Positions 33,335-38,287 of a stretch of DNA of 48,213 nucleotides are shown here, one piece after another; position 1 is the first letter of the stretch, and the number at the start of each line of letters is the position of its first letter. The notes beneath the pieces are model-generated. The model was given only the letters and a program-made list of their open reading frames with translations. It was not told the DNA's origin and did not search any database. This DNA comes from Planctomycetota bacterium (GTDB lineage: Bacteria; Planctomycetota; Planctomycetia; Planctomycetales; Planctomycetaceae), in NCBI GenBank assembly GCA_003670925.1, contig QWQG01000162.1:1-48213 (forward strand), written 5' to 3'. The translations under genes and the position numbers were made by a program.

Positions 33335-34948
33335 TCAAAGACCTTTGTCGGTCGCCAACTTGGTGAATTCCTGGGTCGTCGAATCCCATTGGGCCGTGAG
33401 TCGTGAAAGAATCTCGGGCTGGGACTGGGCTATGTTGGACTGTTCGCTTCGATCGATTGTCACATCATACAACTCCCATGGCTGATCCTTAGCCGCGACT
33501 GCTTTCCACTGGCCCATGCGAATCGCGCGGTTTCCTTCGTGCAGCCACCAGATCGATTCGTGGAGCATCGGATCGTCCTTGGCGAAAGAATGTACCAGAC
33601 TGCGACCCGGTGATTTTGGAACGGGGATGCCTCCAATTGCGACGGGTGATTCTACACCAGCAAGATTCAGGACTGTCGGCACGATATCAATCACATGCCC
33701 GACCGTGTGCCGCAGTTCGCCTCGAGTTTTGATTCCGGCAGGCCAATGTGCGATCAGTGGTGTGGAAATTCCACCTTCGTGGACCCATGTCTTGTGACGT
33801 CGGAAAGGCGTATTACTGACTGTCGCCCAGCCTGGCCCCAGACACAAGTGCGTCTCTGCAGAACCTGGCGCGGCGTGCGGATCATGGCCGTCGTCTCGTA
33901 CCATCATCTCGGCCGAAGCACCGTTATCGGACAGAAACAAGATGAGTGTATTGTCAAACGCCTGCATCGCACGAAGCTGTGCGAGAATTCTGCCAATCTC
34001 ACGATCCATCCGATCGATCATCGCCGCATGAATGGCCATCTTGGTCGCTTGGAACGCTTGCTGGCGGGCATTCAGTTGGTCCCATGATAACGGCAACGCG
34101 ACTTCATTGGGGCCAAACTGTTGAATCTGTTCGGGATAGGCATACGGCGGCCCCTGCGTACGCTCGCTGTCACTCAAGTCTCCTGAAATCAGGCCACGCG
34201 CGACCATGCGGTCAAACCTCGCCTGCCGAATTTTGTCCCAACCGTCCTTGTAATGATCCGCGTAACGCGCGATATCTTCGGGCGGTGCCTGCAGAGGAAA
34301 GTGAGGCGCCGTGAATGCCACATATTGAAAGAACGGCTGTTCGATGCCAGCATCTGCATGTGCCTTCAGGCAGCGAATCGCATGATCGGCAATTGCCACG
34401 GTGGAGTAATAGCCATCGCCGTTCTTGACCTTCAGCAAAGGCATTCCATCTTCCAAATGCCGGTTAGGGCGAAAGAATCGCCCTTGATCCTGCAGTTCGT
34501 AGCTCCGCGTAAAACCAGAGGCGGCAGGTGTTCCATCGATGTGCCATTTGCCCGAATAATAGCATTGGTAGCCCGCAGATTTGAGCAACAACGGGAGCAA
34601 CGGCGCCCAGACTGGCCTGACAGATTTAGGTCCGGAACCTCCCTCAACTGTTGGTAAGGCATCCCGGCCAACCTGCTGCGGATAGTAGCCGGTTAGCAAC
34701 GCAGCGCGGGTAGGCCAGCACCGCGCAGTGTTGTAGAACTGCGTGTACTGCAGGCCATCTTGAGCCAACTGATTCAGATGCGGCGTGGCAATTTCACTGC
34801 CGTAGCAGCCGAGGTCAGAATAGCCCAGATCATCCGCAAGAATTACCAGCACATGCGGTTTTGTCCGTGCGGACTCTGCGGCGTTGCCGACTGGCCTGAC
34901 ACACATTACCGCGACGAAAAGAATCAGGCATACTGCGAAGAGCCTCAT
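33335..34948 (-). CDS. Secreted Cys-type sulfatase
   Basis: An arylsulfatase-like sulfate ester hydrolase of 537 aa with a signal peptide of about 23 residues. The metal-binding Asp pair is at 39-40 (ILADDLGYSDLG). The active-site signature CWPTR (77-81) fits CxPxR, so Cys77 should be converted to formylglycine by a maturase that is not in this window. A GKWHIDG block and an LFLSDNGAS block supply further metal and sulfate ligands. Substrates in marine planctomycetes are often sulfated algal polysaccharides; this one cannot be specified. Its start codon overlaps the stop of the ferritin-like gene (ATGA), so translation of the two is probably coupled. Downstream lies a decayed gene. Confidence 0.94.
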   Translation of the reverse strand: MRLFAVCLILFVAVMCVRPVGNAAESARTKPHVLVILADDLGYSDLGCYGSEIATPHLNQLAQDGLQYTQFYNTARCWPTRAALLTGYYPQQVGRDALPTVEGGSGPKSVRPVWAPLLPLLLKSAGYQCYYSGKWHIDGTPAASGFTRSYELQDQGRFFRPNRHLEDGMPLLKVKNGDGYYSTVAIADHAIRCLKAHADAGIEQPFFQYVAFTAPHFPLQAPPEDIARYADHYKDGWDKIRQARFDRMVARGLISGDLSDSERTQGPPYAYPEQIQQFGPNEVALPLSWDQLNARQQAFQATKMAIHAAMIDRMDREIGRILAQLRAMQAFDNTLILFLSDNGASAEMMVRDDGHDPHAAPGSAETHLCLGPGWATVSNTPFRRHKTWVHEGGISTPLIAHWPAGIKTRGELRHTVGHVIDIVPTVLNLAGVESPVAIGGIPVPKSPGRSLVHSFAKDDPMLHESIWWLHEGNRAIRMGQWKAVAAKDQPWELYDVTIDRSEQSNIAQSQPEILSRLTAQWDSTTQEFTKLATDKGL

Positions 34949-35421
34949 CCTTCGTACTCAGAGAGATATCCCATAAACTCGCGGCGGTGCTCTTCTTCGT
35001 CACCTAGGGCTGTGATGCACAGATCCTGCGTCACATAGTCGAAGCCATCGCAGAGTTGAATGATTTTTGAATACTGAGCAATCGCAGCATCCTCGGCAAT
35101 AATTACGCCCTTAATGATGGCGACGACGTCCGTCATTTTCTGCGGAGGTTGCAAGCTGTCTTGGCGTGCCACAAATGACGCACTGCCGGGAACAATGCCT
35201 CCAACCGTCTTGATCCGCTTCGCCAACAACTGAGCATGCATCATTTCTGCTGTGATGTCTGCTTGCAGTGACGATTTTATTTCCTCCGCTCGAACGCCAT
35301 CCAGATTGATGGAGCACGCGATGTAATTCATGACTGTTTCCATCTCCATCCAGTACGCGACACAAAGCTCACGAATAATGGTGTGGCGTTTTTCCTGATC
35401 GGACATAACCTGTACTTTCAT
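34945..35421 (-). CDS. Ferritin-like diiron protein
   Basis: A four-helix ferritin/bacterioferritin-like protein of 158 aa without signal peptide. Metal-ligand candidates fall in the expected helices: Glu in WMEMETV (helix 1), ExxH in EMMHAQ (helix 2), Glu in IIAEDAAIAQY (helix 3) and ExxH in DEEEHRREF (helix 4). Likely roles are iron storage or a small oxidase/peroxide function. The start is given at 35421; ATG 35406 is possible. A candidate promoter (35541-35568) and an 18-bp inverted repeat (35456-35510) lie upstream and would both precede the coding region on the message. It overlaps the sulfatase gene by 4 bases, an unusual pairing. Confidence 0.88.
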   Translation of the reverse strand: MKVQVMSDQEKRHTIIRELCVAYWMEMETVMNYIACSINLDGVRAEEIKSSLQADITAEMMHAQLLAKRIKTVGGIVPGSASFVARQDSLQPPQKMTDVVAIIKGVIIAEDAAIAQYSKIIQLCDGFDYVTQDLCITALGDEEEHRREFMGYLSEYEG

Positions 35422-35455
35422 TTTTTGGATATAACCCGCGCGGCGACAAGTGGCG

Positions 35456-35510
35456 GGAGTCGTCAGAATTCGGAGTTGTGCTAAATTTATTGCCGAATTC
35501 TGACGACTCC
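35456..35510. repeat. 18-bp perfect inverted repeat upstream of ferritin-like gene
   Basis: The arm 35456-35473 (GGAGTCGTCAGAATTCGG) is the exact reverse complement of 35493-35510, with a 19-base AT-rich spacer. It lies 35-89 bases before the ferritin-like start and would form a long hairpin in that message's leader. There is no T run, so it is not a simple terminator. It may be a REP-like element or a regulatory/processing hairpin. Confidence 0.85.
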
Positions 35511-35540
35511 GGCAACAACGAAGTGTCTCAAACCGCGTTC

Positions 35541-35568
35541 AGTATAAATCAAGCATGCAGAGATGCAA
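35541..35568 (-). promoter_or_regulatory. Candidate sigma-70-type promoter for the ferritin-like gene
   Basis: On the minus strand, TTGCAT (35568-35563) and TATACT (35546-35541) are separated by 16 bases. The -10 matches consensus at five of six positions and the -35 at three. Transcription would begin near 35533, giving a leader of about 110 bases that contains the 18-bp inverted repeat. Confidence 0.4.
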
Positions 35569-35688
35569 CGTGTTTCATGCGAAGTCGCAGAACCGGTTTT
35601 GAAGGTCGGTTGCGGGGAACCGTGGTTGTTGCCGGTGCTGAGTCTATGGAATTCGCTGCCGTTAGAAAAATCACCCACCGTGGCGCAT

Positions 35689-35731
35689 AAAAAAAGGCCG
35701 ATCGGATTAAAATGAATCCGATGGCCTTTTT
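35689..35731. terminator. Strong bidirectional intrinsic terminator
   Basis: The A-rich arm, GGCC and ATCGGATT on the left pair with AATCCGAT, GGCC and five T on the right, with one bulged G (35700) and the loop AAAATG. The plus strand ends in five T, and the minus strand in seven T (35695-35689). On the minus strand it directly follows the four-hairpin array, so it is the natural 3' end of an RNA made from there. Confidence 0.85.
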
Positions 35732-35735
35732 CAAG

Positions 35736-35901
35736 GAGCGAGGTTTCTCAGGCACTCGCTCAAATACATCGGCTCGTTTCTCAGGCGAGCCATCGTCTCT
35801 TTCTTACTGCGTTCTCAGGGCAGTACGCTGCGTTCTCAAGGCAGCGGTCAGGCTCAAGGATCTCACTCCGAGCCCGTTATCTCTCTCGAGAGAAGAGATA
35901 A
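35736..35901 (-). ncRNA. Tandem hairpin array with a conserved loop, candidate structured RNA
   Basis: Four neighbouring hairpins have perfect stems: 35736-35761 (7 bp), 35771-35791 (6 bp), 35805-35825 (6 bp) and 35826-35846 (6 bp). Stem sequences differ in each (GAGCGAG, GGCTCG, TACTGC, CGCTGC as left arms on plus), but the loops share TTCTCAGG or TTCTCAAG; on the minus strand the last three loops read CCTGAGAAA, CCTGAGAAC and CTTGAGAAC. Two further hairpins (35851-35874 and 35877-35901) complete the row. The terminator at 35689 follows on the minus strand, and a weak promoter (CTGAAA 35996-35991, TATTTT 35974-35969, 16-base spacing) precedes it, giving an RNA of about 270 bases. Strand choice is inference. 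No known RNA family was recognised. Confidence 0.55.
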
Positions 35902-36144
35902 GCAAGGTCCGTGCCATTCGCGTCTCAATGTTTGCGGGAAGCTGATTCTGGGTTGGGTAGGAAATGATAAAATAGCAGGTATTTACAGTGTTTCAGGCAT
36001 TTTTATGAATTTATGAATGACGTCTAGATGTGTTCGAGTGAACATGATTCGTCGAATGGTTTTGAATTTCTTACAATGACTTGGGTTTGCAATGTTTACA
36101 AAATTGCAATTTTTGAGTTCTGTTTTTTGTGAGGATCGTTGCCT

Positions 36145-36636
36145 GTGTCGGACGCTTTGCTAACGCACCCTTTTATGCCGCATGATTTTTGGATGAGGAA
36201 GGCTTTGGATCAGGCTGTGCTCGCGTTTGATCAGGGTGAAGTTCCGGTTGGTGCGATTATTGTGCATCAGGAAAAAATCATCGCTGAAGCCAGCAACCAG
36301 CGTGAGATGCTGAATGATCCAACGGCCCATGCAGAAATGATCGCCATCACGCAGGCCGCGGAAGTGCTGCAGTCGTGGAGATTGCTTGATTGCACGCTGT
36401 ACGTCACGCTTGAACCATGTCCGATGTGTGCTGGGGCGATCGTGCAAGCCAGAATTCCGCGGGTGGTTTATGGGGCAGTCGATCCCAAAGCGGGGGCCTG
36501 TCACACGCTGTTCAGTCTGACTTCTGACATTCGACTCAACCATCAGGCGGCAGTACTGGGTGGCGTGATGCAGGAAGACTGTCGGGCAATTCTTCAAGAA
36601 TTTTTTCGGCAGCAGCGCGCACTTGGTAAGAAATAG
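36145..36636 (+). CDS. tadA: tRNA-specific adenosine deaminase TadA
   Basis: Converts adenosine 34 of tRNA to inosine so that one tRNA reads several codons; normally essential. The protein is 163 aa. The zinc-dependent deaminase motifs are intact: HAEM with the catalytic Glu, then PCPMCAGAI carrying two zinc ligands. The length fits the family. GAGGA at 36131-36135 places the start at GTG 36145; TTG 36139 would be only 3 bases from it, and ATG 36175 is also in frame. It stands alone, with the non-coding hairpin region upstream and no gene close behind. Confidence 0.94.
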
Positions 36637-37129
36637 ATGTTCGTCTCTGCCGCTGTGTGAAGTGCGGGGTGTATGAAACCGCGTTGAGACACGCCAGACA
36701 TGCCGCTGATCGTGCTGATCGGCGGGAACTGCCGATTCATACCGGCGTTTTGCTGAGATTCACGCGCTGCTTTGCAGAGCTGTCAAATAATTGCAATCAA
36801 AACTTTAAGAGGTATTGACCCAAATTTTGAGTTGGGATAAATCTCCCCCCGCACGCAACGGGTTTCCCGGCAGATTCAGCCAAACTGTTGCGACTCCCTT
36901 CCAATTTCTGCTGTTGATCCTGCTCTCTTTGCTGATCTGCTTTCCTGCAGAAAGACAAACGAGCCTCCTGTCTCAAATCTGTGGTTTCAGACGCACCCCA
37001 ATCTCGCTTCAGCCGCACTGAAGGAAACTGTGTTGTCACACTGATACCAGAACCCGTCTCATCCGCCCGCTGACAATTCATTGTCGAATTGTCTGCAGGT
37101 TCGTGATCCTTTCTTCAGGGAAGAAGCTC
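36637..37129 (+). other. Intergenic region between tadA and the YTV-like gene
   Basis: A gap of 493 bases without a supported gene; a minus-strand frame at 36797-37081 has no recognisable content. A 9-bp stem with one G-T pair (36703-36725, loop GTGCT) lies 67 bases after tadA and lacks a T run; it may mark the end of the tadA message. At 37072-37093 an 8-bp inverted repeat (GACAATTC and GAATTGTC around ATTGTC) sits 37 bases before the next start codon, an operator or leader-hairpin candidate. AGGGAAG near 37118-37124 is that gene's ribosome site. Confidence 0.45.
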
Positions 37130-38287
37130 ATGCTGTCCAGAAGAATCGCCCTTGGTGCCGCGCTTGGAGCGCTGGCTATATCATTGCAATGCAATGTTGC
37201 AAGGGCTCAATATTATGGTGCTGGATGTTCCGGTTGCGGAACATCTATGGCGGCACCAATTACTGCTGCAAGTTGTTGCACACCAATTCCACCGGTGCAG
37301 ACGACTTGCTATCAGACGGTTCCTGTGACGACCTACGCTCAGGTCAAACAGACCGTTGAAGTCCCGCGTTACGAAACTGCGATGGAAGAACGTGAAGTTA
37401 CGGTTTACCGTCCAGTGACATCCAGCAGGGAAGTCGAAGTGCCGACGGTTTCGTATCAAAACGTCGTCGAGAATCGTACGGTAAATCGTGATATGGGCCG
37501 CTGGGTTACGAATTACCACCCGGTCGCTAAATGTGCTCCGGGTAGAGTTGATGCTCGACCGGGCGTGTTGGGATGGATGAGTCGCACAGGCTACTCCATG
37601 CGAACCGCTTTCGTGCCCAATTACACGACTTCGCGCCAATATGTGCCAAGCATGATGACGTGCAACGTGCCTTCGGTGCGTCAGGTGGCTGTCCAAGGGA
37701 CACGCCGCGTCACCGTTCAAGAAACCAAGATGGTGGCTGAACGCAAGATGGAAAAAATCTCCGTCCAGAAGCTGGTGATGCGGAAAGAAGAAGTGACCGT
37801 GTTGCGTCCCCAGACGGCGTATCGCACTGTTCCAATCGGCTCATCCATGGCTTATGGCGGATATTACGGTAGCCCTCAAATGGCCTTTGGATACCCCATC
37901 ATCGACGGCACTACGCAGACAGCTCAACGACCGACTCCCGATGCTATTGGTGGTGGGGCAGCCCGGAGTGCCACCAAGGACAACTTTGAAGCAGACAAAC
38001 CGTACGACCGCAGCGATTCCCCAGCTCCAGCGAATGGTGCCTCATACGAAGCCCCTGACCGGGAGAATGAGCCTACTGTTTTTCCACCCTCAGCTCGTCG
38101 TGCTGCCAATAAAGCAGTCGTCCCGACAGCTGATCATCGCTCGTCTTCAATTACAACAGCGGCCGAAACGGCCGGGAGTCAGCCATCGCGCTGGCACGCT
38201 ACCCGCAAGTCCAGCGAACGAAGTGTTTCTCAAAGTGACCTGACGAAGCCGTCAATCTCGATGGCCGATTCAGTGCGTGAACGATAG
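37130..38287 (+). CDS. Secreted YTV-like planctomycetal surface protein
   Basis: A secreted protein of 385 aa with a signal peptide of about 26 residues ending A-R-A. A Cys-rich stretch follows, then a long region (about 50-250) dominated by short beta-forming repeats rich in Val, Thr, Tyr and Arg such as QTVEVPRYE, REVEVPTVSYQNVVE and RRVTVQETKMVAE. This pattern resembles the YTV-type cell-surface proteins known from planctomycetes. The C-terminal 130 residues are low-complexity, polar and Pro/Ser/Ala-rich. A structural role in the cell envelope is inferred. ATG 37130 with AGGGAAG just upstream is preferred to the longer frame. A hairpin overlaps its stop codon (38283-38307), and a strong terminator follows at 38406. 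Confidence 0.85.
   Translation: MLSRRIALGAALGALAISLQCNVARAQYYGAGCSGCGTSMAAPITAASCCTPIPPVQTTCYQTVPVTTYAQVKQTVEVPRYETAMEEREVTVYRPVTSSREVEVPTVSYQNVVENRTVNRDMGRWVTNYHPVAKCAPGRVDARPGVLGWMSRTGYSMRTAFVPNYTTSRQYVPSMMTCNVPSVRQVAVQGTRRVTVQETKMVAERKMEKISVQKLVMRKEEVTVLRPQTAYRTVPIGSSMAYGGYYGSPQMAFGYPIIDGTTQTAQRPTPDAIGGGAARSATKDNFEADKPYDRSDSPAPANGASYEAPDRENEPTVFPPSARRAANKAVVPTADHRSSSITTAAETAGSQPSRWHATRKSSERSVSQSDLTKPSISMADSVRER

Follow-up and report, generated by a model that had tools for sequence, protein, structure and literature searches.

A hairpin array in the gap between a ferritin-like gene and a deaminase gene

The 48,213-nt stretch of planctomycete DNA analyzed here (the window) contains a run of neighboring hairpins that expose nearly the same loop on apparently unlike stems, which raises the question of whether the array belongs to an RNA gene and, if so, what its repeated loops might bind. 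The original prediction was a minus-strand, terminator-ended multivalent RNA of about 270 bases. The array is located in the 717 bp that separate a ferritin-like gene (34945-35421, minus strand) from a divergent deaminase gene (36139-36636, plus strand), the latter identified from Pfam and presumably tadA. A 24-nt inverted repeat (35450-35516; 92% complementary, with a 19-nt spacer) is also present just 5' of the ferritin-like gene.

The four neighboring hairpins are real. All are on the minus strand and carry a 9-nt loop of the form CYUGAGARM: hairpin B (35826-35846; loop CUUGAGAAC), hairpin C (35805-35825; loop CCUGAGAAC), hairpin D (35770-35792; loop CCUGAGAAA), and hairpin E (35736-35761; loop CCUGAGAAA, with a G-C pair and a bulged U beneath it). 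The count of four holds for B-E, but one more hairpin, A (35850-35875; loop GUGAGA, which is CCUGAGAAC in a sister clade), belongs to the set, making five. CYTGAGARM occurs only five times on both strands of the 48-kb window, and four of these are in hairpins B-E. The expectation of unlike stems was borne out for A, B, D, and E, but not for the pair B/C, which resembles a DNA copy: because these two hairpins are 94% alike over 17 nt and C is found in only four of 13 aligned congeners, C probably arose recently by tandem duplication of B. Hairpins C and D are separated by a linker, AGAAAGAGAC (35795-35804, minus strand; mostly GAGAGAGAC in congeners), while hairpin A is preceded by a 5' stretch, GAGAGAGA (35880-35887, minus strand), which is exact in 7/13 aligned congeners and reads GAAAGAGA or GAGAGMAA in the remainder. 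A hairpin followed by a U tract (35689-35731, minus strand) constitutes a predicted intrinsic terminator, although it is terminator-like on both strands. With the 5' end placed 12 nt past the GC of a -12 promoter element, the small RNA gene would extend over 35689-35890 on the minus strand, which shortens the predicted transcript from ~270 to ~200 nt. A palindrome at 35877-35901, previously read as a whole hairpin of the RNA, overlaps this predicted start site and does not form a complete hairpin within the transcript.

Since the plus strand of 35670-36000 folds slightly better than the minus strand (z = -4.0 and -3.4, respectively), folding by itself leaves the strand undecided. A plus-strand RNA was nonetheless rejected, as the promoter, the palindromes, and the kept loops described below all read on the minus strand. 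We also rejected a coding origin, because the two overlapping open reading frames (ORFs; 35549-35755, minus strand, and 35712-35945, plus strand) are entries of a mechanical list, whereas relatives keep the stems and loops instead.

Stems covary and loops are kept within one family

A Blastn search detected the element in 13 of the genus's 18 genomes, among them that of the window. Twelve of these were aligned for a first covariation analysis, leaving out G006 as near-identical to G013. In this alignment, 94.4% of cells were paired and 13/34 pairs exhibited two-sided changes. On four of five measures none of 500 shuffles scored as high, while the fifth, further pair types, was not above the shuffles (215/500). 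A covariance model built from the 12 congeners (R1) was then run over 170 genomes of the family at E≤0.1 and yielded 40 places in 38 genomes. All 40 were inspected: 31 are the RNA gene, spread over 31 genomes from six genera (15/18 in the window's genus). The match in the window spans 35732-35887, the window itself being a training row of R1. Six of the other places are leaders of pilin-like genes (L052-L056, L060) and one is a single-hairpin locus (L061), whereas L058 and L059, also within the family, look like chance and were rejected. In the 31-locus alignment, which was fitted to R1, 94.0% of cells were paired and 22/28 pairs had two-sided change, a count matched by one of 500 shuffles. 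Cells with two-sided change numbered 140, compared with 36 after shuffling and 9 to 28 in slid-partner controls. Pairing is thus kept in relatives while stems change and loops stay the same, with the helices of B, D, and E all covarying, which agrees with the original prediction at 12 loci and again at 31.

All loci accepted as the RNA gene belong to a single family, Planctomycetaceae as judged from named relatives. A class-wide draw of 397 genomes gave 29 R1 matches at E≤0.005, 26 of them in the family; the other three (G208, G222, G384) are weak, fall within open frames 264, 156, and 284 codons long, and were not retained. The order-level and family searches ran over an identical set of 170 genomes. 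Among named genomes, the hairpin pattern was present in 21 contigs: 14 named as planctomycetes, one labeled Kuenenia, and six named for other phyla, these last probably by chance. In Rfam 15 the window has no gathering match, the region 35650-36150 returned only MIR166 at E≤10 (E 4.2), and ten related loci returned one tRNA and nothing else. The CUGAGA motif occurs in the TPP riboswitch, but neither the window nor 35650-36150 matches its Rfam model.

Gene context is partly retained as well: the RNA has the deaminase gene beside it in four of the seven neighborhoods that were fetched, representing four genera. A Cys-/Tyr-rich repeat protein is also encoded close to this gene and to the RNA in four of the seven (L063, L064, L067, L068); its counterpart in the window (37103-38287, plus strand) we take to be a YTV-type envelope protein.

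A sigma54-type promoter and upstream palindromes

In the window, a sigma54-type -24/-12 sequence, TGGCACGGACCTTGC (35902-35916, minus strand; GG-N10-GC), lies directly ahead of the RNA. The same GG-N10-GC box is present at all 31 loci, scoring at least 8/10 against TGGCAC-N5-TTGC and beginning 23-29 nt 5' of the RNA, while only 5.5% of shuffled upstream stretches reach even 7/10. Further upstream are two palindromes on the minus strand, TTGTAAACATTGCAA (36087-36101), a putative activator site, and TTGTAAGAAATTCAA (36062-36076). At least two palindromes of the TTGTAA-N3-TTRCAA kind, by a relaxed pattern, were found at 31/31 loci (three in G010), 25-35 nt apart and ~160-235 nt upstream; none of 620 shuffles had two. 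A strict palindrome-N145-170-promoter pattern matched 14 places in 12 of the 18 congeners, ten of which are the RNA, compared with one place for the reversed control. The other four places comprise three with a different palindrome near a coding start and one 5' of an unrelated gene. Given the presence of both features at every locus and a strict pattern that mostly hits the RNA, the RNA appears to have its own sigma54-type promoter and, we infer, a dedicated activator acting at the palindromes.

In the three places with a different palindrome, from three congeners (L149, L154, L155), that palindrome, TTGTACACTGTACAA, is followed ~160 nt later by a TGGYA..TGC match at a coding start. Genera g57 and g29 have a single hairpin, GGCCCGCCTGAGAAACGGGCC, 3' of a sigma54-like box (L061/L089, L088, L083, L100; in L100 it is GACCCG..CGGGTC), and no such palindrome was present in the 660 nt read at these loci. 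They are possibly a shorter relative of the RNA.

With these data the array can hardly be put down to hairpins arising by chance, to repeated DNA, or to a stretch of coding sequence. The near identity of hairpins B and C is what one would expect of repeats, but the covariation already refutes such an origin, and the conserved promoter and palindromes, together with the deaminase neighbor in 4/7 neighborhoods of four genera, also speak against it.

The hairpins expose UGAGA, with GGA mostly paired

Loops were counted in 30 of the 31 RNAs, leaving out L051, in which a contig end cuts the RNA. Model-free enumeration found 83 UGAGA-core hairpins compared with 3.2 in dinucleotide shuffles, or 0-4 per RNA (none in G104), under a rule that does not count hairpin E of the window. 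The commonest loops are 9 nt long, with CCUGAGAAA accounting for 28 of the 83, CUUGAGAAA for nine, and CCUGAGAAC for eight. In minimum-energy folds, UGAGA is unpaired in 80/128 copies (28/30 RNAs) and GAGAGA in 48/121 (23/30 RNAs).

These counts bear upon a known type of multivalent RNA, a CsrB/RsmZ-type sponge that sequesters CsrA through GGA. CsrA itself is plentiful: all seven genomes searched (G000, G009, G014, G030, G031, G032, G118) have 6-12 family matches each over the cut-off of PF02599. GGA, however, is unpaired in only 8/47 copies, in 6/30 RNAs. Moreover, the top of hairpin A reads GGA-GUGAGA-UCC in one clade and GG-CCUGAGAAC-CC in its sister; as GGA is lost there while UGAGA is kept, GGA is dispensable in this hairpin. 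An ordinary GGA sponge is consequently very unlikely, in line with the earlier remark that the loops are not of the GGA type.

The same hairpin in the leaders of pilin-like genes

Searches for the hairpin elsewhere used R2, a 21-nt hairpin model of 19 rows, among them hairpins B-D and three rows taken from loci outside the RNA; like R1, it is partly trained on what it then scores, leaders included. In the window, B, C, and D, all of them training rows, score 29-34 bits, the next-best place reaches 16 bits, and hairpin E, which is outside the training rows, scores only 12.4 bits. In the window's genome (G000), R2 found six places at E≤10: three in the RNA, two in coding sequence (L073, L074), which were discarded, and a sixth (L072) that falls within the leader of a pilin-like gene beginning MLKLLKTFQHDEYGVILSAEIV.

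Over the 170 genomes, 102 had an R2 match at E≤0.5. By tblastn, a pilin-like gene is present at 20 of 41 collected hairpin loci, always downstream and on the hairpin's strand; at L126 and L134 none was found. Four matches (L128, L130, L131, L135) were set aside for lying in long open frames, a criterion that is weak by itself, since L127 and L144, counted as leaders, overlap such frames too. The pilin-like family has 1-23 copies in 79/101 genomes at E≤1e-6, some in tandem arrays (L178-L247; alignment A6). Its label rests on an N-terminal G..SAEL and a hydrophobic stretch, as Pfam gave no good match for 16 N-termini: the best was SafA (E 0.0012), below its cut-off, and Flp1_like was matched by one of the 16 (E 0.011).

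Orientation of the hairpin relative to these genes was uniform. The loci of the best family member in 30 genomes, a set that is not independent because several of them supplied the protein profile, had 27 R2 matches of at least 16 bits, every one on the gene's strand, although the hairpin is upstream in only 16/30. In L184 and L192 the match is ~760 nt downstream of the gene, where it perhaps precedes another pilin-like copy. Among 40 further copies, hand-picked with hairpins disregarded, nine matches of at least 17 bits occurred in seven copies, 9/9 upstream on the gene's strand, and the next-best match was 14.9 bits. Combined, 36/36 strong matches are on the strand of the pilin-like gene, i.e., the leaders carry the hairpin in the sense orientation. 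A sigma54-like box of at least 8/10 within 300 nt upstream was found for 17/26 hairpin-bearing leaders (shuffles, 4.6%; opposite strands, 1/26), and one of at least 7/10 for 24/26 (shuffles, 19%; opposite strands, 7/26). Imperfect repeats of ~9 nt, GATTGTNNC/GGTTGTNNC, were noticed by eye around the sigma54-like box of pilin-like genes, upstream of the hairpins (L140, L103, L142, L072); one frame reads as a Cys-rich peptide, but is not open throughout all of them.

Ten genomes possess both the RNA and a leader with the hairpin (G000, G001, G004, G009, G010, G017, G028, G029, G030, G104). The association is not universal: in the complete genome G031, which carries the RNA, neither a pilin-like gene (E≤1e-6) nor an R2 hairpin outside the RNA (E≤8) was detected, the seven R2 matches outside the RNA in G037 and G118 (17-23 bits) include no leader and mostly lie in open frames, and genus g10 has leader hairpins without an R1 match. 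Targets must therefore differ between genera or escape R2.

The motif has the same sense in the RNA and in the leaders, so that base pairing of one copy with another does not account for its presence in both. This also bears upon the idea that the RNA acts by base pairing, with purine-rich loops and GAGAGA linkers serving as seeds for pyrimidine-rich mRNA sites (UUCUCAGG, UCUCUC). Multi-seed sRNAs likewise display repeated unpaired loops of one kept sequence, and the loops here are conserved, but the leaders bear the same-sense loop rather than its complement. RNAduplex, a crude comparison that ignores folding and was confined to pilin leaders, scored the RNA against its own pilin leader no better than shuffles in four of five genomes; in the fifth, G010, 3/100 shuffles matched the pairing. 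We consider a base-pairing sRNA unlikely.

The hairpin is not confined to leaders. In 14/17 congeners with an HTH_17-REC gene, a UGAGA-loop hairpin with compensatory stems (GTTGG/CCAAC, GCTGG/CCAGC, GATGG/CCATC) overlaps this gene's stop codon. The gene is present in 17/18 congeners (for example L138, 1511-2098, minus strand) and absent from the window's assembly. Its assignment to a Tad pilus locus was dropped, because T2SSF genes adjoin it in L092 (G004) but not in three other neighborhoods. A hairpin at a stop codon is what a stability, processing, or localization element for some general factor might look like, and the sharing would then involve no regulation by titration. Such an element would not, however, call for a sigma54-type promoter of its own, palindromes, and multiple hairpins in one RNA, which favor a regulated decoy, nor for so few hairpins per genome (the six R2 matches of G000 at E≤10 include two in coding sequence). 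We regard this explanation as quite unlikely.

A putative decoy and its candidate partner

A common protein ligand, with the RNA as its decoy, is the simplest account of the shared hairpin. On balance, we lean toward a sigma54-controlled multivalent decoy RNA for a UGAGA-loop-reading protein that also binds pilin-like leaders, at least in some of the family. Transcription of the ~200-nt RNA would be switched on by an activator that occupies the pair of palindromes upstream. The RNA, whose structure is evident from covariation, shows up to five UGAGA-loop hairpins and partly single-stranded GAGAGA stretches, and could thereby act as a multi-site decoy for a loop-recognizing RNA-binding protein. 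As this protein would also bind pilin-like mRNAs, whose 5' leaders carry such hairpins in at least part of the family, induction of the decoy would be expected to alter expression of the pilin-like surface proteins, in either direction. The minus-strand multivalent RNA originally proposed is thus supported by covariation (12, then 31 relatives), and also by the sigma54-type promoter, the upstream palindromes, and the recurrence of its loop hairpin in mRNA leaders.

For the putative partner, one of the many CsrA paralogues is the foremost named candidate. When 37 of 40 fetched CsrA-family copies were sorted by eye, groups recurred across genera. At 40 CsrA-family loci the hairpin was absent within 300 nt (best R2 match, 11 bits). 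A survey of promoters reports that predicted sigma54 promoters in Planctomycetia are enriched at COG1551 (CsrA) and less so at COG2165 (PMC12316311). CsrA recognizes GGA, frequently within hairpin loops; CsrB-type RNAs titrate it, as does a flagellin mRNA (PMC4894983). The full proposal, in which a CsrA paralogue reads UGAGA/GAGA rather than GGA, is titrated by the sigma54-induced multi-hairpin RNA, and controls pilin-like leaders, is tentative and strikes us as doubtful.

Titles and abstract openings in the open-access literature on planctomycete small RNAs, sigma54, pilins, UGAGA loops, and CsrA paralogues yielded no such RNA, and post-transcriptional control in planctomycetes appears little described in the literature searched. 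Having a defined loop motif, a promoter, and candidate mRNA targets, such a decoy-like RNA makes its protein partner findable; it might also explain why 6-12 CsrA-like genes are kept per genome.

Comparison with known systems

The sigma54-type promoter is shared with the Qrr, CrcZ, and GlmY sRNAs. Qrr and CrcZ have a sigma54 promoter together with upstream activator sites, and GlmY is likewise under sigma54 control. Qrr sRNAs act via base pairing and CrcZ titrates Hfq through A-rich repeats; to our knowledge, neither has repeated UGAGA hairpins. GlmY is a decoy sRNA for an RNA-binding protein, RapZ (PMC7073468), which is the role proposed here, but our RNA has no Rfam match to GlmY and has repeated near-identical loops.

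The closer parallels are with CsrB/CsrC and RsmX/Y/Z on one side and EutX/Rli55 on the other. Like the former, the RNA has many short stem-loops with one repeated motif, an inducible type of promoter, and mRNA leaders that bear the motif; it differs in that the motif is UGAGA in 9-nt loops rather than GGA, the promoter is of the sigma54 type, and there is no Rfam match. In the CsrA system a flagellin leader is both target and titrator (PMC4894983); the motif-bearing pilin-like leaders would be its counterpart here. EutX/Rli55, a sponge of the ANTAR regulator EutV, is a small RNA that bears the hairpins of mRNA leaders and sequesters the protein (PMC5821096), an arrangement like the one proposed here. 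EutV sites are paired hairpins with hexanucleotide loops, whereas the loops here are mostly 9 nt, the hairpins vary in number, and no riboswitch match was obtained. Because the defining motifs of both classes were tested for and differ from those of the RNA, we place it in neither, and our best reading is that it would function in the manner of a CsrB or EutX decoy while being a member of neither class.
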